Part shown: one piece after another, positions 3,570 through 52,406 of the stretch
Numbering within the stretch: position 1 is the stretch's first letter
Layout: each line of letters opens with the position of its first letter
Source of the DNA: Pegea sp. RAD2-039
Taxonomy: Eukaryota; Chordata; Thaliacea; Salpida; Salpidae
Direction: 5' to 3'
Assembly: GCA_034620365.1 (NCBI GenBank)
Contig: JAQGEQ010000345.1
Span: 434,001-498,000, forward strand
Length of the DNA: 64,000 nucleotides
Translations under genes and position numbers: made by a program
Notes under the pieces: generated by a model
What the model was told of the DNA's origin: nothing
What the model saw: the letters and a program-made list of their open reading frames with translations, nothing else
Databases searched by the model: none

Positions 3570-5826
3570 ATGTCAGTTGTTCAAAGGATTCAAGATATTG
3601 AAGCTGAGGTGAAAATATCTAATTTATTTTATTAATATTCATTACTTTTATTTGTAAATAATTTTACTTAAGACATATTTAGTTTTAAGATTTATTGATT
3701 TGAATGATTCAAGTTTAAACATTTTTTTTGGTTCTTAGATGGCTCGAACTCAGAAAAATAAAGCAACAGCGAGTCATTTAGGAATGTTGAAAGCAAGATT
3801 AGCTAAACTAAAACGTGAACTAATTACACCAAAAGGCGGTGGTGGTGGTGGTGCCGGTGAAGGTATGTTCAACTTCAAAACTTCATTTGTTATAAGATGA
3901 ATTTTCTAGTTTTTATTGTTATTATTTTTGTTGTTGATGAAATTATTTGTTTATGATTCCATTTATTTTTCTACAGGTTTTGATGTTGCAAAAACTGGAG
4001 ATGCTAGAATTGGTTTTGTTGGTTTTCCATCTGTTGGTAAATCTACTCTACTTAGTAACCTTGCTGGTGTTTATAGTGAAGTAGCATCTTATGAGTTTAC
4101 AACACTCACCACTGTCCCTGGTGTCATCAAATACAAAGGTACCATCTTCTTAATTGTATTGTTTAGTTTAATAATTGTTTTTTAGATTATATATAAAGTT
4201 ATTATTATTTTGTTTCTTTGTAGGAGCCAAGATTCAATTACTTGATCTTCCTGGTATTATCGAGGGAGCAAAAGATGGGAAAGGGAGAGGAAAACAAGTC
4301 ATTGCTGGTAATCACCAATTTTTACAAACTTCTTTTTCAGATTATCTAAAATTCAATTTATCAATTTGAATTGAATATAATTGAAATATGAATTTATCAA
4401 TTTTATCTTTAAATAAAACTTGTTTTCATAAGATCATGTTTAACTTCCTAGAAACATTTTCAATTAAGTGATTTCAACAACTTTGAATTTAAAAAAAACT
4501 ATCTTTGTATTTATCTGAAAACTTTCACTAATTTCTTAATCTGTTCAATCAATTTAAACTTGATTTTTTATACAAACAGTTGCTCGAACTTGTAGCTTAA
4601 TCTTTATCGTGTTGGATGTTCTAAAACCTTTGGGTGATAAACGTATCATTGAAAGAGAATTAGAAGGTTTTGGAATAAGATTAAACAAGAAACCTCCGAA
4701 TATTCATTACAAAATGAAAGAAAAAGGGGGGATTAACTTTCAAGCTATGGTGAGTGAAAACTGAAGTAATCTCCAACTTATTAGAAGTCTTCAATGATAG
4801 TTTCATGGTTTAGGTTCCACAGTCTGAACTAGACTCTGAAACCACAAAAAAGATTCTAGCTGAATATCGAATCCATAATGCGGATGTAATACTGAAAGAA
4901 GATTGTACTACAGATGATTTGATTGATGTAGTTGAAGGCAACAGAGTTTATATTCCCTGCATCTATCTTCTGAATAAGATTGATCAGGTTCATTTGCTTT
5001 ATTATCTTCGTATGTCTTTTGAAGTATCTTTTTGTAGATTTCAATTGAAGAGTTAGATATTATTTACAAAGTACCTCACTGTTTACCAATATCAGCCCAT
5101 CACAAATGGAATTTTGATGATTTACTTGAGATGTTGTGGGAATATCTAAAACTTGTTCGAATGTAAGTTTTATTTTTGACAAGATTTTAGTTTCAAAGAT
5201 CTTTTTAAATATTATTAAAGTTTTGATGATAATTAATTATTCTCAAATTTGCTTTTCTTTATTTACTACTAACTTTTTTCATATATTTAGAATTATATAT
5301 TATAGAAAACTAACTTGTGTCATTTTGATATGCAGTTACACGAAACCAAAAGGGCAATTACCTGATTATCAAGCACCAGTTGTTTTAGCAACCTCTAGAC
5401 CTACTGTTGAAGATTTCTGTAACAAAATCCACCGGACTTTAATGAAAGATTTTAAGCAGTAAGTTTTTCTTCACTTGATAAATTTGTGGTTTAAAAAAAG
5501 TAAAAATAATCTTTTTAATAATCTTTAAATGTTTCATGTCAAGTTCTTTTTCTAATTCTTTTATTTAGCGCTCTTGTGTGGGGAACTTCTGTTAAACATA
5601 ACCCTCAAAGTGTTGGAAAAGATCATCTCTTAAATGATGAAGACGTAGTCCAAATCATTAAACGGTATTTTTTTAAAACATGAATTTCTGAATTTATATA
5701 ATTTTGTAAATAACAATTTTTGGAATTTTTATTTATTGCTTATAAAAGTATAATTGTAGAAAATTATTTTTTTATTTATTACTAATTGACAAGTTTAATT
5801 GAATGTTCAATTCATGCAGAGTATAA
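3570..5826 (+). CDS. DRG1: Developmentally regulated GTP-binding protein 1 (DRG1)
   Basis: Cytoplasmic Obg-family GTPase; in animals it acts with the DFRP1 partner and is linked to translation. Ten exons: 3570-3608, 3739-3862, 3977-4138, 4224-4307, 4580-4749, 4814-4987, 5038-5162, 5336-5458, 5569-5664, 5820-5826. They join in phase to 367 aa, the same length as the human protein as I recall it. The N-terminal helix and basic region are followed by a glycine run and [20 protein letters not shown], continuing into GKST (G1, about residue 70). [16 protein letters not shown] (G3), NKID (G4) and a SAH motif (G5) follow, then a C-terminal TGS-like domain ending near VQIIKR. The start matches the family N-terminus ([13 protein letters not shown] then [10 protein letters not shown]). 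The last coding exon would be only 7 nt; reading through its donor instead gives a slightly longer KRYFFKT tail. A strong acceptor ending at 3520 suggests a spliced 5' UTR. AATAAA at 6044-6049 is a candidate polyadenylation signal. Confidence 0.97.
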
Positions 5827-8800
5827 GACTTCTGAAGTCAAAGAAATCTACTTTTGATGTTGAATATTTGGAGTTTTATTGATGCCATGTCTACAAATTT
5901 ATCTATTTCTAAATTCGTAAAAATTTAAATTTTTTTTTTCTATAAATTTAACTGATAATTATGAGATGTTCGTCAATACTAACTGAAAACTGATAAATGG
6001 AATTTTTCGATAAACTGCACCTGTGTTATAGGAATATATATTCAATAAAAGCTAAAATATAAATTCAATTTTCGAACCAATCAAATTATTTGCCTCCAGC
6101 AGTAGGCGCCATGTCTCAGCAAAGTCCTTTTTCAGTTTCTTTTTCAGTTTTTTAAATCATTTGAAAAGATTTTCTTGTTTCAACTTACAAAAATTTATTT
6201 GTTTATTTCTCAGTCAAGATATTTTTTCATAATTTTAGGTTCGATTTGATGTTTCCAGAGATGGTTTAGTTGGAGTTGAAACAGATTTTTTTTACATTTA
6301 GCTTCATTTTTAAGGTCGATATTTGTTTATTAGAACCAAAAATTTAGAAATTAATTTGATCATTTCAAAGATTTAAAAGTTTATATTAAGTTGTTGAAAC
6401 TTTAATTTTTATTGATGAGTTTACTTCAGTAGTAAATAGTTATTAAGAGATGCTAGAAGTTTGTTTATAAAATCGCGCGTAGTAAACCTCCTAAAACTTG
6501 ACTCACTTGATGAGGACTACTTTGTATTAAACAGTTTACTCTAACATCAATTGTATAGATTTAAACCAATTAAATTATTTCGAAAAGATCTCAATACACT
6601 TTAGATTTAAATTAGTTAAAAAAGTTTTAATTGTTAAAATGATTAGAACAAATTTTTATAAAACTTCTTAGACTGAATTCCAAACTCTTTTAAGACTTTG
6701 ATGAAGATGAAGTCAGACTTAAAAAGAGCTTCGAAGTAAGTCCGGTCGTACCAGTTTCATTTCACTGTTTTTTTAATGATACATTGTAAACAGTGTTTTG
6801 TGTGATATACTTGGCTGTTAATTTTGAATACCTTCAAGGATATGACATCAGTTATTTGATATAATTTACAATAAATTCATGTTTGTTATTAAAAAATAAA
6901 GCCTACTCTTTCTATTAGAAAAATGTTGAGATATAGTATACAGATGAGCCATCCAAATTGTCGGAAGAAATCATTTTTACATTTTCAGTAAATTTGAACA
7001 AAAGGCAGAAATGGAAAAATATTATTAGGAAGTTTATAGTTGGAAATAACTTTTCTATAAGTTATTTATTTATTCTGTAAATTGAGTTATAAACAAAAAA
7101 ACAATATTAAATCGATTTCAAACTAAGATATCTGCCAGAAAAAGTCTTCATCTATTTAAATCAATGATTTTCATCTTGAAAATAATTAGTTTGAATTCAG
7201 ATAATTTAAAGATGAAGAAATTTTAGAAAATGAATTTGTAAATTTTTATTTACAAATGCTTTAAAATAATTTCAACATTAAAGGTGTATAAAAACTTTTT
7301 TTGAATAAAACGCAATAAACCATTTATTAATAGAGTAAATAGCTATTATTGTACATATGAGAAATGTAAACAAGATATAAATTGCAATTTTCTTATTTGA
7401 GGTTAGCTGAGATCAAAAGTTCTATGACTAAAAAGCTTTAATTTGTAATAACTTTTTAGTCAGGCAAAGAAGATAACTATTGCTTAAATAATTGTTTGAG
7501 GTATTTACTATTTAAGGTATTTTTTGATGAGTTATTTTAGCTGAAAAAGAAAAGTTTAGAATAAAAATCTAGTTTTAATCCTACTCCATAAGTTTTTCAT
7601 AAGTTTTTCAAACCTCAATATAAGTTTTTGTGCTTCTAAACTTTTAGTGTTATTGTTGAATCATATATATACTCGTTAAAAAAAACTTTTTCAAAAATCA
7701 TTTATTTTGTTTAATCATCTTAAAACTATTTGACTGCTAGAAACACTCTATATAATTAAACTTTCTTAAATTAAAGTGATGCTATGTCATAAAATCATTA
7801 GTTTTTATATAATTTAAATATAAATACTTAACTTTAAAAACTATAATCGTCATAATACTGAAATACTTGCTTAGCTATTGACCACAATTACAACAGAAAT
7901 ATTTGGAAGTTAACTATATTTTAACTTTTAGTCGAATATCAACAATGTTTTGTAAGTTTCTCATAACTAAGAACACTGTAAGATATTAACAGCACTTTTA
8001 TTTTAAGTAATTTATTAGATAATATTTGTTAACACTCTTATAAATATTATTTACAACAATTTGGTAGCTGTTTAATAAACGTTTTTATTTGCTATATGTA
8101 AAAATAATAAGTTTTAGAATTTTTACAGTTCTATACAATTTTAAATGAATAATTACAGGAAATGTCCTAACACAAATTAATTTACTTTAAAACTTCAAAC
8201 AAAATATGAATGGATTAAAGATAAAAGTCGAACAATCTTACACTTTCATGCTAAATGAAAATGTTTTTAGTAAATAAATACAACAAAAATGTTTACATAT
8301 ATGCTATTTAGACTGAGTAAATAATTTATTTCTTATCTAACAATTTATAATATAACTTTTTTTAGCCACAGCTGATTTTAAGTTGAACTGATAATAGATC
8401 TTGGGTTTTTATTCTTGTAAATGAGTTGATTTTGTTTTTCAGTTATATCGACTTCTATAAAATAAGTATCAGTGCTTTGATAACAATTTATTTAGTCAAA
8501 TAGATAGTTGCAGAATCATGTGTTTCAAAATTAAAAGAATTTAAAAAAGTTGAAAAAGTTGCAAATCACTGAAAATAAATAACTTAAAAAGCTTACCTTA
8601 TATATCAGAAGATGAATACTATATATTTTTTCTGCATCATTGTTTATTTTAGGGTTTTAATGATGATTGAAACCAAATGTTTAATATTTGTGTTGAAAAC
8701 TTTAAGCTGTTTTGTATTTAACAAATTGTTTTCTTTCAAAGTGTTTTTAGATATATTCGATTTATCTAACTTTTAAATTATTGTGGTTTATAGTCAGTAT

Positions 8801-28483: not shown

Positions 28484-31400
28484 ATGACTTTTTCTGATGA
28501 AGATGATCAAGATTTTTATTTAAATCTTTTTAATCTTTATGATGAAGATAAATCAGGTGAACTGTCTTGTTATCAGCTACATGACATGTTCAGCACAATC
28601 AGAACTGGAAATTTGAGCCTACAGCAAGTAAATAAATCTTTTATTTTAATTATTTATAAACCAAGTGAGTGATTGAATTAATAATTATCTTTTTTCACAC
28701 AACATTTTACATAAGTTTTTTACGTTTTTATAAGTTTTTATATACATGTTATGAGGATCAAACAGGGTTTCACCTAATATAATTTTATAAAAATTCATAT
28801 TCTTTTAATCATAAATGTTCTTATCATATTTCTGTATGCTTCAGATTTCTGCAAGTTTAAATAAAATTTGTGGTTATCATGTCTGTCTGTCTTCTAAGGA
28901 TTTGTGTGAAGTCTTACAGGTGAAACTTAACTGATTAGTAATCAACTTAGTTAACAATGAATGTTCTCGTTTAATATTGGATTTATGATTCCATAAAATT
29001 AACTTTGTTTTATATATTTACTTTAATAGAGAGAACCTTGAAAATGAAAAGAATTTGATAACCAACTAAAGTTGCTAACAAGTTTTCATCAATATGTTTG
29101 ATAAACCCTAACTTTTGTTTACCTTAATCAGTAATTACTGACAATATAATCATTGATTAGTAGCAATTTTAAACTATGAAAACCAAGCCGAGTTTCTGGT
29201 CTATTTTCACATGACACTTTTAAATAGCTAACAGATTCATTAAACTAAAGTTACAGTAAATGAATAAAACAATTATAACCACAAAAATATTATAAAATCT
29301 AGTTTACTTCAGAAAGCTAGTAAATTCAATGAGCTTGACCATTAAAAAACCCTCTGCCTAAATTTAGGAAAAAAATGTTTTACAGAAAATTTTGGGTTTT
29401 GATTTTAGCATTCTAGAAGTTAATTTTTAGAACCTTATCTATCAAGATACAAGTGATTTATATTAATAGATGAATAATTATTATCATTAACCAGGAAATG
29501 GATCGGAGATATTCAATAATGCAGAATGTTGAATGGGAATTTAAATTGCTTGATGGAAATAACGATGGGTTTATAAGTGTGGAAAGCACCAAGTAAGATC
29601 TTTAATATAAATTGTTGATAAAGTATTTTAACTGCAGTCGTTGTTCTACATATCACAAAATCATAGAAAATCTTTTTTATTTGAAGTTATTAACGTAAAT
29701 ACACAAAAATTATTTCCTGATATACTTCTTAAGATAACAGAATAAATTTCAGTTTTTATTTTTATTTGTAGAAAGTTCAAGTTGCATTTAACAAAAGTGT
29801 TTGTACATTTGTAAATACTAAAGCAACTTTTTTAAAATGACGTTTTCAATTTGTTGTTTTTAGGGTTGAATTTTTCCTTTTAAAAAATGTAGCTGTTTTA
29901 AAAAAGACTACATTTTGGTTAAATTTATTTTATAAAAATACTTAAAAACGTTAATAAAATATATTTGATTTCGACTTTAAAGGTTATAAAGTTAATATAA
30001 TAATAATTTTGTCGAAATAATATCAAATATACAACTTGAAATTTCAGTGTAATTGTGATAAGTCTTTTCGTACAAAATCTTAAATGCTTTTTTCCTTTCT
30101 TTTTGGTGTCTTACTGTTTGTTCAATGAAATTTTATCACATTTATACGAGAAGAATTTGTTGTAAAAAGCTCTTTAAATCTTTTATCTCGTTTAAAAAAA
30201 GATAAAAAATAAGTTTTGTTTAACCAATTTTTACTTACTTACAAATAAATAATTCTGAAGAGAGTTACTGGCCCAATATAACCACAGTTTTTGTTGCATT
30301 ATACAAATTTCATGAAATCAATTTTCATCTAATGCTACAAAAGCTGCGGATATAATGGAGTCAGAAAAATTGTAGATATAAAACCTTTTGTTTATTAACA
30401 TGTACCTCATAAGTCTACAAAAGTCACCTTCTAGCATATAACGGTTATAAAAGTAACATTTTTCTAAACTTTTTTTTGATATTTTCCACTGTAATTAAAT
30501 CATTTTAAAGTCACTTAAGACATTGCTAACATTATAGATTAAAGTCAATGAAGAAGCTTATCTTATAACTCATCTTGTATGCGTCATCATTATTTTTTTT
30601 AGTAAAATGTTGTCGTCTGCTTTTTCATTTCCTTTTCTTATTCAGTGGTTTCAGTGGAATAATCCGTTTTAAGTTATTTGAAGAACTGAAAATTTAATTT
30701 TGATCAATGTATTTTCTAATTTCATTTTTGAATGTTTCAAATTTTACATTAAGTATATAAACTTTTTAATTTTCCAGAATAAAGAACACTACTTTTATTT
30801 TCAAATCTTTTTTAAATTTGTTGATAGTCGAATTTAAAGCTATAATTAAATAAAAATAGTAACAAATGTAGTTTCCTGATATTTTTAACAGCATAACTGC
30901 TTGCTGCTAGCAGAATTATCTAAAATTAGACAACTTAAAGTCTATTTTGTGACATAAATTTAAAAAGCAAAACTGATATGCTAAGAAAATTTATTTGAAG
31001 TCACAAAACTGATTATTATCATTTAAAGACTTTTATGTTAAAAACAAATAAGCTTATTACTTATACTTACAGATGTTTGTTTCGTTTTGCTCATGGTACC
31101 TTGTTTAGTGAAGAAAAATGGAATGATTTTCTGAACCAACGCCCTATAAGCAATGCACCTGTATTTCTAAGTGAAATTGAAGTCCTAATTTGTGACTTCT
31201 CTACCCTTTCTTTCAACTCTAATAAAAGTAATTATTTTGAATTTTTTATCATCAGAAAGTTCTTTAAGTATTATTTTGAATATCTAATTTTTTGGGGTTT
31301 GTAATAATAAAGGATTCCTTGTCTAGGTGTAAAGCTATCTTTGAAGTCAGAAATTGAAAAAGAAAATACAAAAGTATGTAGCTTTTTTTTTCTAGTTATT

Positions 31401-34400
31401 CTTTCAATTAGAGTAAATTTTTTTAATACAATTAAAAACAGACCAACTTTTTAGTTAGCTTTAAAACAATGTTAGCAGAGTTTTAAAACAATCAAAGTTA
31501 GGTGCGGTATCCTGAAAAGATGATATATCAAAGATTTCCTTTTAAATTTATACAATTTACTGTAGCGGCAATAATTTTTACAATTTCAATCGATTAAAAC
31601 CTAAGTCAGCGATTAAGTTTGAAAATCAAGCATTTAGGAAATGTTTTATCATCTGTTGACTACAAAAAGATTACTCCGAATTTTTGGTTTACTCAAAGAT
31701 TGCAAAATTAAACATAATCTTGCATCGTTTTAAGAACTTTAGTTGTATCTACGAAACTCTAGTCTTAATCTCATAACGCGCAAAACTGTTTTAAACAATT
31801 TGGTTTATAAACCTTTTGACAAAAGTTGTTTTAAGATAGATCTTCAGCTGGTGGTTTAAGGTGTTAAGAACTCATTATGCAAGAATTATTCTTGTTATCT
31901 GTATACACCCCCAAAATATTTATTTAATGTTATCTATACTCTGTTTGATTTAGTCTTTGAAAGTCAGGTATTGTTTGATGTGATTTCTAATAAATTTGTG
32001 TCTTAAATTTATTCTATCAAAATTGTCTCGACACGTTTACAGCAACTGCTTTTTGGTTCGATCATTTTACAATTGGTTCAAGAATTGACATCCATTTAAG
32101 GATATGAATCATTCTTGTTATGATCATTCTACAAAGTCTATAATCTGAAGATAATTGCAGCTTACTTATAATAGAACTATTTATTCAACTTATATTTATC
32201 TAATCATCAAATCTTTAAATAAAGACACACTTTTTTTCAGGGTTTATCTTCTGACGAAAAATCAACATCCAATTTAAGTACTGAATTGTTTTAATTACAA
32301 GAATAGTTTTAAATTATCAATAGACTACTATCAGAGAACCTTTCTCATTGTTAGTTTTATTGAAACTGTTCATAACACTTTTGACAGTTTAAGTAAGAAA
32401 GAAAAGTTTTTAACAATGATTTTGTAAATCTTTGCGCAATCATTGATTTTTCTCTTGTTCACTATAGTTTTATAGTTAAAATTGTTTATTGTTTTATGTT
32501 AAGCATCTATTATGATAAACAGACAATAGTGTCGAAATTGGAGCTGAAAACCTAGTGATTGGCATGACAATAGAGGAGCATCACAAGGATGTCTCTACCC
32601 GTTCTAATAGAGCTTTGTCAGTAAAGGTCAGGATGTTTGCAATAACTTTGTTCTCGAATTTATTTCCTATTAGTAAATAGCTGTTAGATCTTAATCACTA
32701 CTACCATAAACTTTGAAAAATCATTTTAAAACGAGCAAGATAAACTTTAATTTTTTAATTATCTCATCAAGAATTTTTAAAAGATAAGATTGCTTAAATA
32801 TTTACAAATCCTAATAAAAATTTGTTTTTTTTTTCTATAATTTGAAGATTTAGTTAATTGTCTTTTTCTGTTAGTTGTAGAACTTCCATGAAAACTTGTT
32901 TACAATATTTCGAAATTCAAAATCTAAATTTAAAATATAAAAACTCAATTTCTTATGTAATTTAACAATATTAAAACATTTAAACTGAAAATTACCTCAA
33001 ATATAATTTGTAAAAATGAAGTTTTGAAACACTTATACTTAACTGAAATTCAGAAATCAATAACTTTCAAAGAAAACAAACTAAATATTGACAAATTTGT
33101 GTTTTTCTTGTTATTATTCATTTAAAGTATTTTTTATAAAATGTAAAAATCTATCTACAGTTTAGATAACTTGTTTGATTTTCAAAATTAAATTGTTTGT
33201 TTGTTTTATTCAAATTCAACTCAAATTGTCTAAATTCCAACCTTCAAGTAATTTCTTTAAACTAAATCTTTAAATATTATTTTTTTAGTTGATTAATTAT
33301 TTGATTTTAGAGTTTCAGGAACAAACCAGCGACTTCTGGATCAATAAACAAAGGTATTTTTTACTTTGCTGCTTTTTAATATCTACTATTACCTAAGAAA
33401 TAATCATTTAAATATTGATTTATCAATTTCTGCTTAAATTTAATAAGAAAAATTGAATTTATAAAACTGATATTTGTAAATATAAAAATCAATATTTGTG
33501 GCATCTTCTTTGACAATTAGTTTGCGGATTTCTAACTAAAATTAGTCAATCTCTTCAAATTGTTTTGAGAAAACAGTTTTAAAAACATTTTACTAGGTTA
33601 AATATTTATTTTCACTAATTATTTACTTAAAGGATGAAAATAATCTCTAAATTTTATTTAGTTGAAAAAGGTATGAACGAAGATGATGAAGAAATAAAAG
33701 TACCAGAAGAAAAGAAACAGAAAAATGTTAACTCAAAGGAAACTGCGAATTTATTTAGCTGTTTAAAAGGTTTTTTTTTTCAATTTATATCTTGTGTAGT
33801 CACGTGATAATTCAGTAGGCTTTTACAGAAATTATTTTTAAGTGTTAATTTCGATATCTTCATCTATTCTTTAATAATTTATTTTCTATTTAACCAACTT
33901 AAGTTTGGTGTTTGGAGATAACTGCATGTTGTAAATATTTGTTGGAAATTTTAATTTTGATCAAAACGTTTTCCACTGAACGACTTGAGCATGACAATTA
34001 TCAAAGTATTTATAAAATATGATTCTGCATGTGCTTACAGAATATTTTTTAATGTAATTTTATAAGATGGCCAGATAACTAACAAGTTTTGAGATTAAAA
34101 CAATTGAAGCAGTATTAAAAAGTATTAAATACTTTTCAAGAATCAAGGATCTTTCTAATTCTGCTTATAATCATTTTTATTGAAGTTGAAAATGTAGCAG
34201 TATTTTTAGTTTAAACTTCAAAAAATTAGTAGCAGCTTTTGTACTTTCATCAAATCAAATTGAATATTTGCAAACTAAATTATAACCTTCTAGATGTCAC
34301 TTAAAAATTACTAGGATCCATAGATGTTTTCACTTTTATCTTCTAAATCACTGCATAAAATCTAAAGATTTGCTCCAAATTAATAATATTAGTCGTCCAA

Positions 34401-37400
34401 CGTTTTAATATATAGATCTTGATGAAGCAAAAGCTAAGTTTAAAATTGAGAAACTTGAAAAAGCAATTTCAAAAACTCAAAAGTTTGGATTTGATCAGAA
34501 TGAATTAAAATCAGAGACATTAGAATGTCAGGAATTGCTACAACGTTTAAAACGATTAGAACGACTTAGAAAGGAGGTAATTTACTGAAATATTTCTATA
34601 ACAGAATAAAAATATTTGTTCCAAATTACATTAAAATTTGCGATTAGTTATTAAATTTCAATTACTCAAGTATAGATATCTGTAATTATAACTTCTTTTA
34701 TTAGCAAAAATTAATAGTTTTTATTACTTTTATTTGCTAGTCATAACAACACCCAATAAATAAAATTTGTTTAATTTTTAACTACTTTTAAAACTAATTA
34801 AAATTTTATAATTCTTTTTAAACCATCAAATTTTAACAAGATTTTGTATAAACTTTTAGAAAAGATAGATTTTCAAAAAACCCAATCTTGTTAAAGAACA
34901 TTTTCGACCACTTTGGTTTAAGAAATGTAATACTTCTCGGAAAACTTACTAAAAATAATCAGAAATACATTTTTAAGACGCTAAAAGTAGACTTATCACT
35001 ATTTTAAAATAATTTATTTTGGCTAATTACGTTGAAGCTGCAAATTAAACTTTAGATATTTCTGTAATCACCTATAATAGTATCAAAAAAAAAATAATTT
35101 TTGTAAATTATTTATATTTCTTCATAATACTTTTAAACCAAAACTAACTTTATGGAGTTTTGAAAATATCAGATATTTTAATCTAGAATTTGTAGAAACT
35201 TAATAATAGAAATAAATTAATCAATAGGTTCTTGATCTAAAGCAAAGTACTATTGCTGAGTTAAGAAGTTATAACAAACCTCATGAAACTGTTCATAAAG
35301 TAATGATAGCAACTTACCTACTTCTTGGCACAAATGAAAATAAGACACAGGTTTGCATAAGCTTTTCCTACATTAGTTTAATCACAATCTAAGTAATATT
35401 TTTACTTTTAGACTTACAGATAAAATTACTCCAATTTTATTGATTATTTACTAAAGTCTTGTTTAAAGTTATTTTAAAACAACTTAAAATAATATCAACA
35501 ACAAAAAAAGGCTGACGAATTGCAGATTACAATGTTTAAACTAATTATGTTTAAATTAATCGTTAATTGAATGAATATATAGTTGCATTATAAGGTAAGG
35601 TTGTATAACAAGTTATGTAATTCATTCCTTGATCTGATAACAAATTAACGATTATAGGAAACAAAGTCAACGCTATTTTCAACTTGTTTTGTAGCTTTTT
35701 AATCATTTTTGTTCACTACATTTTGAATAAAAAGTTCTTTTCAGAGCTTTTTGGCAGATTGAACATGTTTTTCTGTTAGTTATTAGACATTCGATTTTGA
35801 ATGAAGTAAAAGGACTTATTATGATTAATTTACTCAGCATTTTTTAGTTTGAATTTCTATTTTTAACAAAACCTGTGTTATTTACAAGAATTTAAACAAA
35901 ATTAGTTTAATTTTTTGAGAATAAAGGCTGTAAAGAAAATTCTTGTTTGATTTTCAAATTTGATATCTAATTAAATTACATAACAGTTTTATACAAAATT
36001 AATGAGAAAATAGTTTAAAAAATCTTAGAACACATAAGTGAGACTGTCACATGCTTTTGCTTTTAACATTAATCTTACATTTTTATTTCATATTGTTTAA
36101 ATGATTAAAGATTATTCATTTCAAACAACTGGTTTACTTAAACTAAGTGATTAAACCTTATTTAGTTCTCAATATATTTTCATCAGATATTGTAGTTATA
36201 TTTTTACAACATAATCATTCAAACTAGAGGACTGAAAATTAGCCCGGGCTATTTTAAATTTTATAATTATTTGATATCTTAAAAAATTTTAAGCATGTTA
36301 GTGATATTGTATTTGAAAAAATCTTATACTGGACAAAGCCTTTAGAAATTCTTAAACAGTTTTTTTCTGGTCTTTATTTTGAGATTAAAAAACACTTACA
36401 GTCATTTACTTAAAGAACATCATTTAAAACATAAAAATATATCTAATGAGACAAAAACATTCTTGTAGATACATTTTCTCATATAATATTAATATTTGTA
36501 TTTTTCTGTAATTTTAATTCTTTAAATTAAAATAAAATTGGTGGATAAACCCTTTTTTTTGAAATTGTATTGTTAAATATATAAGTAACTTATTTCTGAT
36601 TGAAATAAATAATTTTTTGTAAAAATTTTCTTTTAAACTTCAGCACTTTTTAGTAGGTTTAAAATTGATTTCTAAATTTTGGAAAACTTCAAAGGTTTAT
36701 TTGGTTGATATTTTTATGAATTTTTTAGCTCTGTGTATTTTGAATATTAAATTTTGATTTTTTCAGTATTTGATAATCAAACTTTGAAAAATATTTGCTT
36801 TAATCTCTATTGAAATCCTGGAGAGAGTAGCATTTTATTTCTACTCTGAAAGTCAAAGATTAAAATACTTATTACAGTTAATAGTTTAAAGACTTTATAA
36901 TTATCAATCTTCAAACTTAAACTTTATAAGAATTTAAAAGAGATAAAAAGATAAGACTTAAAATCATTCAGTGATTTGTTATTGAGACAAATTACATCTT
37001 TCAATTAAAATTTTGTTCACAATCTTGCTTTTTAGTGTCTTAAAATTCAATAAAGAGCCAGATACCAGCAAGATTTGTTTTTTTGACTTATCTTTTTATA
37101 CTTAATGCATATGCAACCTTTAATAAGTATCTAGTAAGCTTGATGTTAAGTATAAGACTTATTTTGAAATAATCTAGGTCAATAAATCTATTTTTTAAAT
37201 AAAAATACCAAAATGCATTAAACTTGAAGGTAAGATTAAAAACTAAAAAAGAAATTGATTTTGCAGCAAAGTTTTTAGTCTAAAAGAGCAAACAAACCAG
37301 TTTTTAACAGATTTTAAAATTAATCCTAATCCAAAGTAAGACAAACAAGTGAAGCTGCTTACGTAGAGCAAGGCAACAAATTAATTTGTAAGTTTTCACG

Positions 37401-40400
37401 ACAGGAACGTGTAAAGGTTGAGTCTGACTTCAGTATTTTCACTTCTATGATATTTGTGCCAAAACTGATTCTATATTTACTGAGATGAATAAACTCAAAG
37501 TTATCAACAACATCAATTTACAAAACAAATTTTAATTGGAATAAACATTTTTTTTACAACGCAATGAAACGCTAAAAATCTTTTACGTTAAAAAAAATCC
37601 AATCAAAAAAAGGTGAAAGTTTTGATGATATCTGTTTCATCTGTTAAAGTCAGTTGGTTTGTTCCAGAGATACAACAGGCTCTGGGTTCAATTAATCCAT
37701 GTTCTTTTGTTAGTAGTGTTCCAATGTAATCACCGTTTGAGCTATACACTAATAGTCTTACTGTTTCTTTATCCACCACAAGCAAGTTGTCATGACTATC
37801 AACACAAATTCCACGTGGGTCTAGAGGAACATTTTTGTCATGTACTTTTATGGCTTCTTCAACTTCTGATTGCGCTCTTTTTAAGCTGAAATATAAAAAT
37901 TGGGCGAAATTGGATTACTGGCGGCAATTTTGTAGCCTACCTTTGTTTTTGTTCTGCTTTTCGTTTCACTTCAGATGAAGAATTTCTCGACTTCTGCTGA
38001 TTATTTTCAGATATTTCCATGGCAACCAATGAGCAACTACTTCCAGCCATCACAAGCAGCTCAGTTAAGCTCTTATTTGAAGTATTCCTCCGAAGATTCT
38101 TCATCAACTTTTTACATTTTATTCCCCCGTTTCCAAACAACATGCTCCTCTTCCACTTTAGTGTGTCTTCCATCGAACCAATCTTTCCAATTTTCGAAGT
38201 CTTCTGGGACTCAGACGCGAAAGTGATCATTGACATCGCTCTAGTGCGCCGTGACGCCGCTGTAGATAATGATGACGTCATTCAGTCAAGCTTCAGTGAT
38301 TTTACCTTCTTTGATGAGTTGAAGTTCATCAGGTTGATCTGGAACAATTGAAGCCGGGTTCCCGATGCGGAAGATGACTGATCCGTCGCGATCAAAAGCG
38401 ATCACGCATCTTTCGGAGGTATCAGTGACGATGATCTGGATGAAGATCAGATCAGAAGGAGTTTTTTGTCTCAGAAGAACCTCACCTGGTTCTTGTTGTT
38501 ACAAGCTATATAACGTGGAGCAGTTAGTTTAATCTTCTCCAGTTCAGGGTTATTTTGGAAGATCTCGATCCACGGGATCTCTTCACCACGTGATCTGAAA
38601 GAAGATTTAATTGTTGATAACTTAGGGATCGTTGTAAGAAATAGCAGCAAGGACTTTGAAAGATCTATTTAATTTTTATTGATTTTTAATGGAGCTCGTT
38701 AAAAGATTCATAAATTATTTTGACAGTAAAAAGCAGTTTGAAAAATTATCTAGAAAACGTATCTTGTATTATCTTCTAGTTGTTTGTTAAAGAAGAAATT
38801 GAAACTGACTTAAAAGTAAAAAGAAGTTTTTTTTTTCAAATCACCATACGTAAATATTTACGTGAACTTCAAACTTCAAGTAAACATCCTAAATAATTTA
38901 CATTTTACTTTCACATCTTAAAGTTCAAGTCAACAGTTTTTTAGTCATTTGAAATATTTTTAAACGATTATCTTTCTAATCTTTGAAAGTTACAAGTAAC
39001 TTGAGGTTATGGCTCGCAAGTCAATTTCATATTTTTACGTCGTTGGCCTGCGTCTGACCATAAATTGATTTACACGCTTTCCGCAAAGTTACCCTTTCTT
39101 AGATCGGTCTTTACGTTCTGTGCTAGAGTATCGTGTAATGATAGCTCCAGTTCTTGAATCTATTATACTTATAATTCCATGTTTGCTTTCAGTTATTGCG
39201 TAGTTTCCTGAAAAAAGGTGATGGGTTATCTAACTTGTGTTTCTAGTAAAGGATCGTTGTTTTGATCTTTAAAGAAAACTTATAGGAAGACATATAGATA
39301 ATACGACAAGTGTGTAATTTGTGTAAATCAATATTTCACGTATTAGTGGATTTCATCTATAAATCAGAACAAAATATTTAAAAAAGGGTTTTTATTCTTC
39401 ATACAATTAAATATTCAGATGACAATTCATAAAGTTAGTAAAATTTGTTTAGTAAGATGTTAAGTCTTTTTAGATTTAAAAGTAGTTTAAGGCAGACTAA
39501 TTTGTAAGGTAATTTATCTTAGTTGAGCTGCAAGCTTTCTTGTTGTTGTCCTGAGTAACAACTGCTGTTAATTGACAACAAACAGGAAGTAGAAACTAAT
39601 TTGTTGTAACTTGAAAATGAATTTTTTGTTATATATTCAATTGTTAACTTAATATGTGTTAAATGCTTAACTTTTATATTTCTTACTTGGTATCATAAAT
39701 TTTCTAATATTTTGTGCTCTTAGAATAAGAAAATTGAGTTAAATGAAAATAATTACTGCGGTTAGAGAGAGAATTTCCTATCTTGCCACATTCAAATTTT
39801 TCTATCTACAACATGAATTATTCAACACAGCATATTCGTGTAGTACAACCAGCTATAAGTAATTTCAAATTTCTTATTGATTTATGTGGTCTAAATCTCA
39901 GGACTTAGATTACAGCAAACTACAATTGAATATCTTAAAGTAAATCAATGAAGAAATACCTTTTTTATCACATGTAATTCCCCAACAAGAACCAAAAGTA
40001 TCATCATCAAAACGCCGTTTCAACTTTCCATTTAAATCGTAAATACAAACCTAAAAAAAAGTATCTTCAACTGATCTTCTTTGCAAGGAGTCTTACTCAC
40101 CTCTGTTAAATGACACACTGCTAATGATCGTTGATCTTTACTAACAGTAATCCCTCGTCCACATCTAGGCCACGTGGGCGCTCTGAACGTCACTTTTTCG
40201 TTGTTATCAATCAAGTTGATCTGTAGAGGTGGATTTTGATTTATTTTGGGAGCTTTTAGACATCATTGAGACTTACTTTGACTTTTCGTGCATCAGTAGC
40301 TGCTAGAGTGGGTTTATTTTTAAATCCAGCTACATCATGAGCTTCATGAGTTATTATCGATGTCTTAAGTCTTCCGTTTCGAGCAGATTTAATCCACTGA

Positions 40401-43400
40401 TTAAAATCAACCTGAAAATTAAGTCACTGACTTGAAAATATATCAAACTTTCCAAAGTCTAGAGATTAAAATCATAAAATAAGTTCTTACAGTTTTTAAG
40501 CAGTTGAAGTCAGAAGCTTGGCTGGTTGATCTCGTGTTGCAGTTGTTGTTTGTTAGCGAGTCTGTTGAACTCGTAGATGTGCTGCTTGTTGACAAATGAG
40601 TATTCCTAACGTCAGGATAAGAAGCTACTCGACGCTCAGCCAACGCTTTTATTTCTACTAGTTTTGATTTTGGAACCGTTGATTCAACAGACGACTGCTA
40701 ACAGGAATAAATTACAACTGTTTGATTTGAAAATATAATCAGCTTACTCGTCCACTACTCAACATATCATGTGAGTTAAATCGAGTAATTGAGAGTTCGT
40801 TTAAGACATCGTTTTTCAAGGTCTCATTTTCGAGTATCTTGTAAAGCTGTTTACTTACATTCTCACAACTAACTGTTGAAGATATGAAAAGTTGTATTAT
40901 TATTGAATAAACTTCTTTGATCAACCTGATCTTGATTCCTTAGGAGATCTACGTGATGTACAACTCGAGTTTTTCATGTCACAACAGTAATATGATGAGC
41001 TTAGTGAAGAAAGCTTTTGATAGAAATTAGGCGAAGAGCTAGTCACGTGACAACCAGAGTCCTTCTCTAAATTTTGAAGAGTAACATTGCATCTATGACA
41101 ACAAAGTTATAATATTAGAATTCAGCGGTTAATAGGTTAACTAAATCAATATTTCACAAAAAATAAATTTTTTTGTTAACAATTTAGAAATGTAAAAACC
41201 TGTGACAATATAAACTTGTCTGTTGAAACGAACCAATAGTCACGTAGTCAACTGTTTGGCAGCTAACATTTCTGGTTGCCGGCATCGTATCTTTGGGACT
41301 TACATTGATCGTGATAGTTACATCTCTACAATCGGTACTCATTTGCTTCAAAACTAAATTAGTTTGTGATACTTTTTGTTCTTTTGTTGCAAACGGAAGA
41401 TTGCCTTTGACATTTGATTCACCATTTCTAAATATTTGTAGAAAATATGAAAAATTTTGTTCTATTCACAAATAAAGAAAACATTTTTTATTGTTTTTAA
41501 AATTGTCAAAATCAATAATTTTAAGTTTATATTTTGTTGGGAGAAAATCTTTTAAAGTAAAAACATTTTTTTAATTTTAGAATGATTAATATCTGCAAGA
41601 CGAACATTAAAAGATTTAAATAATTTAATCTAGAATTAATTTTCTTATTTATTATTCTAATAAATTATTATTTATTAAAAAATATTATTCTTTTATAAAC
41701 GAATTTTTCTAGATTTAATCAATTAGATATCACATTTTGTTTTCTACCTGTCACTTAACTAAATATTATACTCTGAATAGTTGTTTAAAGTTAAAAGTTT
41801 TAAAATTCAATATTCGAAAATCGATAAAAAATATATTAAATTTAAAAAACTCATATAAAAAATAAAGTTAGAATCGACTTTCTATATGAGATTACAATTA
41901 TCGTAAATATAGCTTCTCAAAAATTTTAATTCATTTAAAACTTAACAAAATTTAATTTACAAACTGTTATTGAATTTGTAAAAAATTTAAAAACAATGTT
42001 AGGCTTGTAGTAAACATTTTGCATGTTTACTTATTAAAGTAGTAAATTACTCACTTAGTATTCATGAGGGAATTCACATTTTTTTCTATATCTTCCAAAG
42101 GAATATTACTTCTGTTGTTTGTAGACATATCCAAATAAGAATTATTTCTACAAAATTATTAAATATTTATTTATTACCACTTAGATTTAAAAAATAATAA
42201 ATATTGATAAAAATATCAACAATAAAGGAACAACAAATGATTTGATAACGTTTCTACTATAAAATATATAAAAAAAAATGACCAAAAAAGTATTTTTATC
42301 ACATTTATACTCAAGTGTAAACAAACTTTACTAATTTTTTATCTATATTTAAGATTATTTTTATATAAATTGTTACTTACTTGTTCAATTGAATATCAAG
42401 ACTCATCATGTTCAATCTGAAAAAAAAACTAATTAATTGATATTAATAAAATATATTATTTACAGAAATGGACAAGCATACAGACACTTTTAGGTAAAAC
42501 AGGAAAAGAAGGCTTGAAAAGACGAATTGGACAAATTAAGATTACTGATATTGATAGTACAACTGCTAAACGTGCATCATCTTTGTTAAGTGATGTCGAT
42601 CTTGAATTTATTAGAGATATTAGTGCTGGAGCAGCAACGTTTTATGTTTGGGTAAGAAGGAGCTAATGGCGGTTTTAAAAATCATTCTAAATTGCTTTTG
42701 CAATTTAAACATTTGTATAAAAACAAAAGTTATAATAAGATTAATTAACAACTAAAATAAGCAAAAGTAATGACTACAATTTTAAAATTAGATTAATTAA
42801 AGTAATATGAATTACTTACCAATAATTGTAAGTATTAAAAGATTTGAAAGTCTTTGTTTAAAGAATTCACTGCTTTCAAAGTACAAGCTCAGTCCCAAAT
42901 GGTTGAAACAGAAAAAAGATTGGACTTTTATACTAGCTTTTTAACTTGGTCACCAAAAAACAAGAGTTTTCTTTTTTCTGTCTCACTTTAAAAAATGTTA
43001 AAAAAAATTTGGTTGTTTTTAGCTAGATGTAGAGGTTGCGACTGAATTTTCGTTCTTCTATTTTCTTTATTTTGATTTTTTAAGCTTTTAAAACATTATT
43101 ATTTTTTATTAATAAATTTTTGAAAAATAATGAAAACTTTAAAATGTCAAAAATGATTTTTAATTTTTAATCTAAATACACAGAATATTTTTCTTAAACT
43201 TTAAAAGTGATAATTTGCAACGATTCTTAATAAAATTCATCTTTAAACAGATTCTTCTAAATATTTCAATTTTGAGTCTTCAGAACTTTTACATTTCAAA
43301 TATTTTTCTCAACTCTTCTTATTTATGTTTATGAACAACTATTATCAACTTTAACAAGAATTCTGATTCATTCTTAAATGTTAAGAAATAGTTTACAAAA

Positions 43401-43678
43401 TTTGAGATTATTTTATGTCAACTTTATTTATTTTTGAATAAGAAATAATATATCTTTACTATTAAATTAATATATATATAATTATATCCAATATCTTATG
43501 GATATTTTACATCTATAGTAAATATGGTTTTTACTTTTTGCTATGATCTAGTTTTAACTTCATAATATTCTTTGATTACTTTGCTATAAGTATTGACAGA
43601 AATTCAACAATAAAACGTAGAAAATTGCTCTATTTTCAGGTAAAAGGAATAATTGATGAACCAATATGTGATGTTTGA
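28484..43678 (+). CDS. EF-hand, coiled-coil protein with a dynein microtubule-binding-domain-like C-terminus
   Basis: Thirteen phase-matched exons give 439 aa: 28484-28627, 28845-28919, 29495-29592, 31073-31227, 31327-31373, 32241-32277, 32523-32626, 33311-33353, 33662-33769, 34416-34576, 35228-35350, 42466-42651, 43640-43678. An EF-hand loop is at residues 20-31 (DEDKSGELSCYQ) and another at 93-104 (DGNNDGFISVES). Both lack the usual Glu at position 12, and degenerate partners follow each, a calmodulin-like four-hand layout. A linker rich in charged residues leads to a coiled coil (about 271-324, ending LLQRLKRLERLRKE). The end (about 330-439) follows the dynein heavy-chain stalk-tip pattern: STIAELRSYNKPHETVHKVM, LLLG, a W about eight residues on, and SAGAATFYVW near the end. 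There are no AAA+ motor motifs. Intron 11 is 7.1 kb and holds an antisense gene. Calcium-sensitive microtubule or axonemal binding is inference. A non-coding 5' exon is likely. Confidence 0.85.
35351..37602 (+). other. First part of the long host intron, no exon seen
   Basis: Donor GTTTGC at 35351. This 2.2 kb is AT-rich and has no exon in phase with the flanking exons on the plus strand, nor minus-strand coding until the end of the nested NHL gene. It probably includes the 3' UTR of that gene. Confidence 0.5.
37603..42409 (-). CDS. NHL-repeat beta-propeller protein nested in an intron on the opposite strand
   Basis: Fourteen exons read from high to low coordinates: 42409-42381, 42147-42055, 41427-41200, 41092-40926, 40872-40748, 40697-40491, 40411-40277, 40220-40101, 40050-39960, 39207-39093, 38594-38486, 38435-38306, 38259-37941, 37885-37603. 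All phases agree: 716 aa. Residues 1-280 are polar, Ser/Thr/Asn-rich and lack a RING, B-box or other recognised domain. From about residue 290, strand-turn repeats of the NHL type appear: GRGITVSKDQRSLAVCHL, VCIYDLNGKLKRRF, WGITCDKKGNYAITES, IIVTDTSERCVIAFDRDGS and, at the end, GICVDSHDNLLVVDKE. Exon 13 adds about 105 mostly basic, Ser-rich residues between propeller repeats, an unusual insertion. NHL domains in TRIM/LIN-41/Brat proteins bind RNA or proteins; without the N-terminal RING this one could be Brat-like or a plain propeller. The start ATGATG lies 7 bases after a TTTTTTTTCAG acceptor. Confidence 0.88.
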
Positions 43679-48300: not shown

Positions 48301-51300
48301 TATAATTGATTTCCCAAAGAATATATCTGAAGATACTCCACTGGGTTATTTATACGATATAAAGATGGAAAAGAAAAGATATGCTGCTTTGTACATGCGT
48401 CTTTGCCAGTAAGTTTTTTGTTATTATATTCTAAGACAAGAAGTTAATTTTTTTTACAAATTTTATCAAGATTTTCTATTTATAAAATGATCATACTTTA
48501 TACATACTTATTTTTTAATTGAATATTTTGTAGTTGCTTAAACACTTTCTAATAGTTCAATTTTTAATTATTTTGTTCTAAAGTAATCTACAGAACCACC
48601 TTGCGCTACACCTGTTAACATTAAAACAGTGATTGTAAAAATTGCGTAACAATTCTATAAAAGAATTCTTATTTCATTTAACAATCGATAAAAGTTTATT
48701 TTTGAATACTGTCATAAAATAGAATAAAATAGTTTACTGAAGAAATGTATAAAATATTCATTAAATTTGTCTTTTTTAAGTAACGGATATTTCAAAATTT
48801 TGTTTTTCTTATAAAACAATGTATAAAGATATCAGCTTACATAATTGAAGCAAGTTGATTTTAAAAAGATAATATTTTTTACTAAGAAACAGCAAGTGTG
48901 AAAAAGTTGACTTAAAATAATATTTTTTCTCACAGATATTTCTTTTTTATAAATAATAGATACAAAAAGTATTCAAAAAAAATAATTTAATTTCATCAAT
49001 TTTTCCTTTTACAAAATTTCCATTCGATTTTTTACTCTTTCGCAGAGCAGCTCAACTACCAGCAAAAGAAGTAACAGGTTATCTTAAAGGCGTAGGATAT
49101 CTTCCAGAATATGAGTTTCAAAATAAAGAAATAGATGTCTTCAGAGGTAGTTGGAACGCTGTGAGAATAAACAATGAATGGAGATTGGTAGACACACATT
49201 GGGGAGCGAGACATGTAATAGGTAAACTCCTTGAATAATTGACGAATTTATTACTAGTTTAGTCGAAATCAGATGTTGTCGATTTCCATTCTCTAAAAAC
49301 TGATTTGATCTTAGGTTTTCAAGAGACTTGTTTTCAATTTATTATCACAAATCATTTAATTTAAATAAAACTTCTTTCAAAGTATTGATCTTTTAATAAA
49401 TAATTTTTTAATGATGAATTATGTATTGAAATAAGTTATTTGAAGTTTGTTGTTGAGCTGAATCTTATCAACAAATTATCTTCCTACCTTTCATCTTTTT
49501 ATGCTTGTACAATAGATGGTTGCATAAAAACATCTCCTAAAACCATTTTACTGTAAAAAAGGGAGTAATTGATTACTTATAAGCCTTGTTTAATAATAAA
49601 ATGACAAATTCTAAGAAACCTTTTAAAATCACGTGTAATAAGCTTCCTAGATAAAAAGTCAGTAAATTATTTTTCAATCTAATGTTTTTTATCAAGATTT
49701 TCATCTTTTCTTAGAAACTGATGACGTTTTACAAGATTTTGAGATTAAAACGGTGTACAAATACGAAGACCATTACTTTCTTACTAATCCTGAAGATTTA
49801 ATCAGCACTCATTTTCCAGATGAACCTTGCTGGCAGCTTCTTTCTAAACCCAAATCACTTGAGCAGTTTCAGGTCAAAGTTTATATTTTTAATGATTTCA
49901 ATTTGACTTACATCAGAACAAGCTAAAAAGGCAATATTTCAAAAACTTCGATTCAAAACCTTTCTACATTTAGGTTTTTTATTCGCAACCTTCTAAATAT
50001 TTATAAATTTTGATTTTGCAGAAAATTCCGAAGCAATGGCCTTTGTTCTACAAGCTTGGTTTGAAACTGATCTCTCATAAAGAAGGGATCATTGACACAG
50101 ATAAGCGTGGAAGAGTTCAGATTCAAATTGAGATGCCAAGTGACATGAGAGTTGATAGTAGGATAAAAGCTGAACTTGGATTTATTGATAAGATGAAAAG
50201 AAAACAGAATGATATTTTGTGTTCTTCACTATTTCATAATACAGTGGAAACTATAGAAGTAAGTCACTAGTTAATTTATTTACTTTATTTAGATGTATTA
50301 TATCTCTAGACACAATATGATTTTGTTAATTGTTTAGCATCATACTTGTTGTTTAAAAAACATTTTTGAGATATATATATATATAAACCAATCAGGTGTC
50401 TACCTAGAAGTTCTAACTCTAAAAATTTTGTTGGCAAATTAGTTCATTCTAAAAAAATACTCATCTAACTTAACTCACGAATTTTACAACTGAATATGAT
50501 CTTCAAAACATCTTAAAATTATTTTAATAATTGTTATATTTATTAAATGTTCTCGAAAAACAGCTATCTGTAGTAAATGCTAAAGACTCACACCTCCAAA
50601 GATCTACTCTTGATGGTTCTGTTTGTTGCTCTAAACGATCTAGATTTCCAGAATCATTTTATTTTATTTTAATCTTTAGATAATTCAAGAGATTGAAATA
50701 ATCAAAAAAATTTTTTTTTTAAGCTGATTAATGTGTTTTTACCGGAAACGGGATCTTATTTACTGAGGATCTTCGGAAGATCAAAAAGATTTAGTGAAGA
50801 TGAAGACACACTTACAAGTGTTTGTCTCTTCCAAATAAATTGGTTTGAGACTTCTAAAAGTGATACTTTGAAGCTTTCAAGGTTCAATCCGCCTTTTCCT
50901 AAATCTTCTTCATACTTCGGACTTTTAGTGGATTCTTACGAAATAGGGATCCGAAAATGGGAGCCGAACAACGCGATTGTTGAGTGTGATTCGAACGGCG
51001 AAGCAGAAGTTCGAATCCTTGTTGAGAATCATCCTTACATCGAGTTTTCGCACGAGTTAGAAACCTATGATGGTCTGGTCCTTAACTCAAGGTGCTTGCA
51101 GTTCTCTAAGATTATAAGATGGAATCCAACTAAAGAAGATTTATTGTCGTTGACGTGTACAGTAAGAGTCCCTAGGAATGGTAACTATTTATTCACACTT
51201 TTCGAGAATCGTACAAAGGAATCAGATTCACTAAAAGCTTTTCTCAGCTTTTTAATTATATCACAAAATATAGGGGCGGGTGACATTGCCCCATTTCCAT

Positions 51301-52406
51301 CTCTAAACAGCGGACCAACTAACAAGTTAGGGTTCCGTTCAACAAGTAATTTTCTTATCAGTTTGAAACAAGTTTATCCAAAACAAATCAACAAGACTGG
51401 GATGTATTACTCTGATGATCAGGGCGAAGTGGTTTTAGTTTTTAATCATTCAGAAGAGTTAAAGGTTGTAACTGAAATTGATAATTCAAAGATGTCTTGT
51501 ATCTTGAGTGTTTTGAATCATCAAACTATTGTAGCAATTCGAGCTAATACTATTGGTGAATATTTCTTTAAAATGTTTGCAAGTTCAGTTAAAGGAGAAA
51601 ATAATTTGCCTCTTGTGTTTACTTGCTTGATAAAAACTATTCAGCTAACTGGCGTATATCAACCATACCCCAAATCATCTACAAACTGGGGATTACAGGT
51701 CAACTCTTCTATTAATGAAAAAGTCACTCTTTGCAGCTCCAAAAATTGTGTCTCTTTTATCAACAGTCGTTTTAACCTACAACTGGATGAAAAACAACCA
51801 GTGTTATTATATAATGGTGGTAAAGATATAGAGTTTAAATTTTCATCCAATCAATCACTAGCTTATCAAGCAACTCTAAAACAGTTAAATACAGATGATG
51901 AAGCAAACCAATTTTCATTTGTTTCAAATGCAAGTTTAAATGAGTGCCATGTGATTGTACGAATACCAAAAGTGGATTCATACCATCTAAACCTTTTCAT
52001 AAGTGAAAAAATCGAAGATAGACCTTCAATTGTTTTTAGTATACTTATATATGCAACTAAAATTAGCTTTAATGTACGACCATTTCCAATTTCCTTCCCT
52101 CTTTGGCATATAAGTCCGCATCAACTTGCTTCCTCCCTTCAAAAAGACCTACATTCTTTAAAAGACAACAAAATTAAGTTATTTTTAGGTCAGTATCTTC
52201 AAATTGTGGATCAAATTATAGTTGAACCTTATTATAAAGTAATACTTGCAGTTGATAAACGACATTTAGTTTTACCGACTAAATGTAAAGATTGTTTGTA
52301 TGAATGGAACTATTTCCCCGCTGCAGTTGAAAAGGAAGCTTCAATCTTTGTTCAGAAAGATAAAAATAGCGGATCAGTTGAATTACTTCGTTATTTGATC
52401 TTATAA
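45352..52406 (+). CDS. KY/hillarin-like transglutaminase-fold protein, probably catalytically dead
   Basis: Twelve phase-matched exons: 45352-45387, 46265-46339, 46444-46495, 46689-46896, 47014-47101, 47285-47403, 47647-47779, 48260-48408, 49046-49221, 49715-49872, 50022-50258, 50724-52406; 1037 aa. The start MGSIC fits N-myristoylation with an adjacent palmitoylatable Cys and is encoded by its own 12-codon exon. Residues to about 235 are disordered, then basic and helical. The KY/transglutaminase core spans about 238-345 (ARILFHWTSAQN, YAALYMRLC, SWNAVRINNEWRLVDTHWG). YFLTNPEDLISTHFPDEPCW follows, a hallmark of this family. By alignment from memory the catalytic Cys falls on Lys275 and the His on Gly321, with Asp336 kept. 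The large last exon carries four copies of a beta unit, each with a P.PFP/PYP-like lead and a G.Y.L.lF strand (GSYLLRIF, GNYLFTLF, GEYFFKMF, DSYHLNLF). KY and hillarin are linked to muscle and cytokinetic actin scaffolds. AATAAA at 52530-52535. Confidence 0.93.

Follow-up and report, generated by a model that had tools for sequence, protein, structure and literature searches.

A salp gene predicted to end in a homologue of the dynein microtubule-binding domain without the dynein motor

The dynein microtubule-binding domain (MTBD) is described as part of a motor, with an affinity set by the register between CC1 and CC2. A locus of the salp Pegea sp. RAD2-039 raises the question of whether this stalk-tip domain also occurs in a protein that has no motor. 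The window examined here is the whole 64,000-nucleotide stretch C257:434001-498000 (within a 105.7-Mb, 387-contig assembly; AT-rich). A preliminary description of this DNA had proposed a protein of 439 aa that joins an EF-hand calcium sensor to a dynein stalk-tip-like module and has no AAA+ ring, and had doubted one of its splices. Its length and end were reproduced by 13 plus-strand exons (28484-43678) that join with GT/AG sites and matching phases into 439 codons ending at 43678 (Table 1).

Table 1. Exons and the longest intron of the predicted gene, in window positions
Feature	Coordinates	Strand	Content
Exon 1	28484..28627	+	Start codon, first EF-hand motif (loop DEDKSGELSCYQ)
Exon 2	28845..28919	+	
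Exon 3	29495..29592	+	Second EF-hand motif (loop DGNNDGFISVES)
Exon 4	31073..31227	+	Remainder of EF-hand region
Exon 5	31327..31373	+	Linker; basis is phase consistency only
Exon 6	32241..32277	+	Linker; basis is phase consistency only
Exon 7	32523..32626	+	Linker
Exon 8	33311..33353	+	Linker; ambiguous codon score
Exon 9	33662..33769	+	Charged linker
Exon 10	34416..34576	+	Helical stretch; aligned to dynein CC1 by sub-threshold Pfam MT match
Exon 11	35228..35350	+	MTBD start (AELRSYNKPHETVHKVM...YLLLG)
Intron 11	35351..42465	+	7.1 kb; contains a minus-strand gene
Exon 12	42466..42651	+	Remaining MTBD, first Trp to terminal Trp
Exon 13	43640..43678	+	Final 12 residues and stop; no CC2

Several other features were observed in the window. 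The minus-strand gene at about 37603-42410 (start near 42410, placed by eye) seemingly lies wholly within intron 11, and its open frame at 37603-37914 matches an NHL repeat (E 3.1e-4, barely above the cut-off). A 569-aa open frame at 50697-52406 (+) carries four KY-type immunoglobulin-like stretches (Ig-like_KY, 6.5e-28). Searches for Rfam families and tRNA found none. As a hint of ciliary function, RFX X-boxes with up to 3 mismatches were also sought; none lay upstream of the gene, and the window as a whole held 3, a number reached in 2 of 100 shuffles.

At the N-terminus, Pfam searches of the whole protein passed the cut-offs for EF-hand_6 (E 5.3e-8, 32.4 bits, cut-off 25) and EF-hand_1 (E 1.8e-6, 27.6 bits, cut-off 25.4), with EF-hand_7 narrowly below (29.9 bits versus 30). 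The EF-hand region described earlier is thus upheld by two models above cut-off, within the same in-phase gene model as the MTBD. Calcium coordination in EF loops is usually completed by Glu or Asp at position 12. This position is Q and S in loops DEDKSGELSCYQ and DGNNDGFISVES, which makes the proposed role of calcium sensor doubtful. The two motifs recognised by Pfam are a likeness to EF-hand modules such as those of calmodulin, centrin and NCS-1, but the loops here lack the acidic position 12 and the module is fused to an MTBD. Another contig also encodes a similar EF-hand module (C11, near 1940330, +; E 0.004, 29% identity, 30% in a separate alignment; Pfam EF-hand_7 4.8e-9 on a hand-joined reading), followed by long coiled-coil-like frames (fetched loci L036 and L042, plus strand); genome searches made with the MTBD gave no match there.

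For the C-terminal domain, Pfam MT (PF12777, cut-off 24 bits) remained sub-threshold, both for the C-terminal 184 aa (E 9.2e-4, 18.8 bits, profile positions 55-215) and for the last 115 aa (E 0.0049, 16.4 bits). The family was unlisted in the whole-protein search at E ≤10, and the 33 matches of a genome-wide PF12777 search did not include this locus or either of the two related loci on contigs C114 and C258 described below. A phmmer search of the PDB with an 11-exon, 411-aa version of the protein ranked a dynein heavy chain first, at E 0.0036 only; the last 115 aa retrieved no dynein, their sole match being an ATP synthase gamma chain (E 1.1). Because Pfam MT was sub-threshold and the last 115 aa had no dynein match, we built a profile from the MTBDs of 14 dynein loci in the same genome, read by hand and aligned (outside this set are the dynein locus C10, omitted when the sequences were aligned, and the loci C76 and C245, with AAA_9 matches). 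This profile scored the spliced 439-aa protein at 32.0 bits (domain 29.9), whereas 20,000 shuffled versions of the last 115 aa reached at most 11.4 bits; scored separately, exon 11 reached 18.5 bits and exon 12 reached 8.9. Hence, the likeness to the dynein stalk tip fell short in Pfam but was significant with the profile of the genome's own dyneins. A six-frame scan of the window with the same profile also yielded a minus-strand segment at 4859-5059 (14.3 bits), which was rejected, as its alignment is confined to the central part of the profile and lacks both the H1 Pro motif and the Trp positions; the minus-strand reading there looks antisense to a gene at about 3800-6200 (+), perhaps a DRG/Obg-type GTPase (by eye).

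The gene is not alone, since sequence searches indicate two further motorless MTBD genes in the same genome. One was found with the window MTBD at C114:140114-140514 (E 0.003 and 0.02), and the other, C258:1572405-1572593, entered through a chance-level match (E 5) and was later confirmed by the dynein profile. Their full MTBD readings are ISEIKSYVSPPVAVHDVIVCVYLLLG (C114) and VAEVGRYTNPPQMVKVVMGCVLILLG (C258), and the 14-dynein profile gave them 38.9 and 41.6 bits (best shuffles 16.2 and 12.0). With Pfam MT, the C114 reading scored 20.0 bits, below the cut-off, and the C258 reading was unlisted. Another candidate, C13:1052492 (E 0.23), was dropped because no dynein-like reading was present, and scans of viral and prokaryote contigs gave no relative. 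The C114 gene occupies about 6830-8570 of fetched locus L014 (plus strand). Its upstream exons resemble a degenerate EF-hand region in which no Pfam family was found; this EF-hand-like part is tentative, because no in-phase closure was reached on the gene's 5' side. The C258 MTBD is preceded by long helical, coiled-coil-like frames (loci L038 and L039, minus strand). An ankyrin-death-domain-like reading (by eye) lies upstream of it on the same strand, and probably belongs to another gene given the gap of ~4 kb.

Profiles built from these motorless sequences recovered dyneins. A two-gene profile had 28 PDB matches at E ≤10, of which 23 were dyneins (best 0.0051) and 5 were others. With all three genes, the profile had 46 matches at E ≤1 (best 4.3e-6), every one judged a dynein heavy chain by name, length and match position, although several carry other labels (MKIAA0325 protein, AAA+ ATPase domain-containing protein) and one counted as dynein is labelled "Radial spoke head protein 9 homolog" at 4583 residues. 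No non-dynein protein with an MTBD appeared in this search of the PDB, a database that includes axonemal dynein structures. Alignment of the three motorless genes against the 14 dyneins in hhalign gave a probability of 98.5 (E 2.8e-15), compared with 97.8 (E 1.3e-12) for the window gene and C114 only and 0.1 for an EF-hand control alignment. Compared with the dynein heavy chain MTBD (PF12777; PDB 6kio, 6kjn, 6kjo, 6rzb, 3j1t and 3err), H1 with its Pro motif is alike, and LLLG, the Trp pair and the full domain length also align, whereas extra residues with a shared GK precede H3 and a tubulin-contact position is altered. Together, these comparisons indicate that the predicted C-terminal domain is a homologue of the dynein MTBD.

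When the window gene, C114 and C258 were placed in a tree with the 14 dyneins (17 rows), the motorless genes grouped together with 97/96 support, a grouping to be read with the long branches of C114 and C202 in mind. Intron positions were also compared. A phase-0 intron lies one residue before the first conserved Trp in all three motorless genes (Q|KW in the window gene, K|TW in C114, E|DW in C258), and all 14 dyneins read through this place. Directly after the terminal Trp, the window gene and C258 have a second phase-0 intron; C114 has a possible donor there, although its last exon was looked for and not found. At this second place, 13 of the 14 dyneins read through by a string test, and the remaining one (C1b) has its intron elsewhere, a few residues upstream of the terminal Trp. 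As read from genomic sequence, the gene structure is therefore common to the relatives. The boundary between exons 11 and 12 in C114 and C258 moreover supports the 7.1-kb splice from 35350 to 42466 that had been doubted, as the two exons are seen to belong together.

A dynein heavy chain continues into CC2 and an AAA+ motor ring, whereas the predicted protein has neither, since its stop codon falls 12 residues past the last conserved Trp (the C258 protein ends 19 residues past its terminal Trp). Genome searches with AAA_9 (58 matches) and AAA_8 (66 matches) placed none on contigs C257, C114 or C258, in keeping with the earlier view, based on a length of 439 aa, that no ring is present. In these searches, C76 and C245 were matched by both AAA models; both are absent from the PF12777 list and represent divergent dyneins or dynein-like proteins.

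What could an MTBD do in such a protein? Without CC2 and the ATPase ring, switching by stalk register would be impossible, and fixed attachment is for this reason the simplest reading: the MTBD would attach to microtubules or tubulin with a fixed affinity, set in place or dimerised by the CC1-like helix, while at the N-terminus the EF-hand-like module would bring in a partner, with strong control by calcium improbable. Microtubule binding by the predicted protein is plausible. We regard as evenly balanced the overall proposal that this is a non-motor protein with a true dynein-MTBD homologue at its C-terminus, most likely attaching to microtubules.

A serious rival, although a less likely one, is that the fold has been kept while microtubule binding has been lost, leaving a docking module for another protein, for example in a cytoskeletal or ciliary complex. 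K3299 and R3337 are tubulin contacts of the mouse dynein MTBD (excerpted text of PMC6629372), and both equivalents in the window protein are Q (counted by hand on the 6rzb alignment). At the R3337 place, 12 of the 14 dyneins of this genome are basic, compared with one of the three motorless genes (Q, K and L; by eye), and the long tree branches of these genes also favour a repurposed domain. Nonetheless, the core motifs (P, LLLG, first and terminal Trp) are preserved in three divergent genes, and the net charge of the window MTBD (+3) is positive as in the dyneins (+1 to +9).

It is less probable still that the model fuses two genes, one with the EF-hands (exon 1 up to about exons 4-7) and one with the MTBD (starting at about exon 9-10). 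No conservation backs linker exons 5-9, and in the C114 gene, with its 5' side unclosed and no Pfam family there, the EF-hand-like part is tentative. Open frames of 100 codons or more, taken from 17 fetched loci, served to train a codon score, which ranked the annotated frame top in exons 1-7 and 9-13, with positive values in exons 1-7 and 9-12; exon 13 scored negative, although its annotated frame was still the best of three, and in exon 8 another frame outscored the annotated one, an ambiguity that suits a break in the linker. Against this stand the 13 exons chaining in phase and the preference for the annotated frame on both sides of exon 8 (exons 1-7 and 9-12).

It is very improbable that the resemblance arose by chance or from a coiled coil, or that the locus is a decayed piece of a dynein gene: the sub-threshold Pfam MT result and the unrelated 14.3-bit segment, which outscores exon 12 though not exon 11, would fit it, but the spliced score of 32.0 bits far exceeds that of any shuffle, the PDB matches of the three-gene profile were all judged dyneins, the hhalign and tree values agree, the reading contains no internal stop codons, and the introns are common to the motorless three and not to the 14 dyneins.

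The motorless genes may thus represent a distinct non-motor family, a reading to which we give slightly less than even confidence: a C-terminal dynein MTBD of single origin, with an exon structure of its own and three or more members here, would be combined with varied N-terminal parts (an EF-hand module, a degenerate EF-hand-like part and a long helical array), and the stalk tip would serve as a fixed microtubule anchor outside motors. In the excerpted open-licence PMC literature, no description of a motorless MTBD protein was found, and the excerpted text of PMC10105768 describes none; our comparison covered the PDB and this literature, and such a protein may already be annotated somewhere. 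If the reading is correct, a natural MTBD with neither CC2 nor ring would mean that the domain works, or was repurposed, outside the motor, and the motorless MTBD would offer a natural construct for studies of MTBD binding at fixed affinity.
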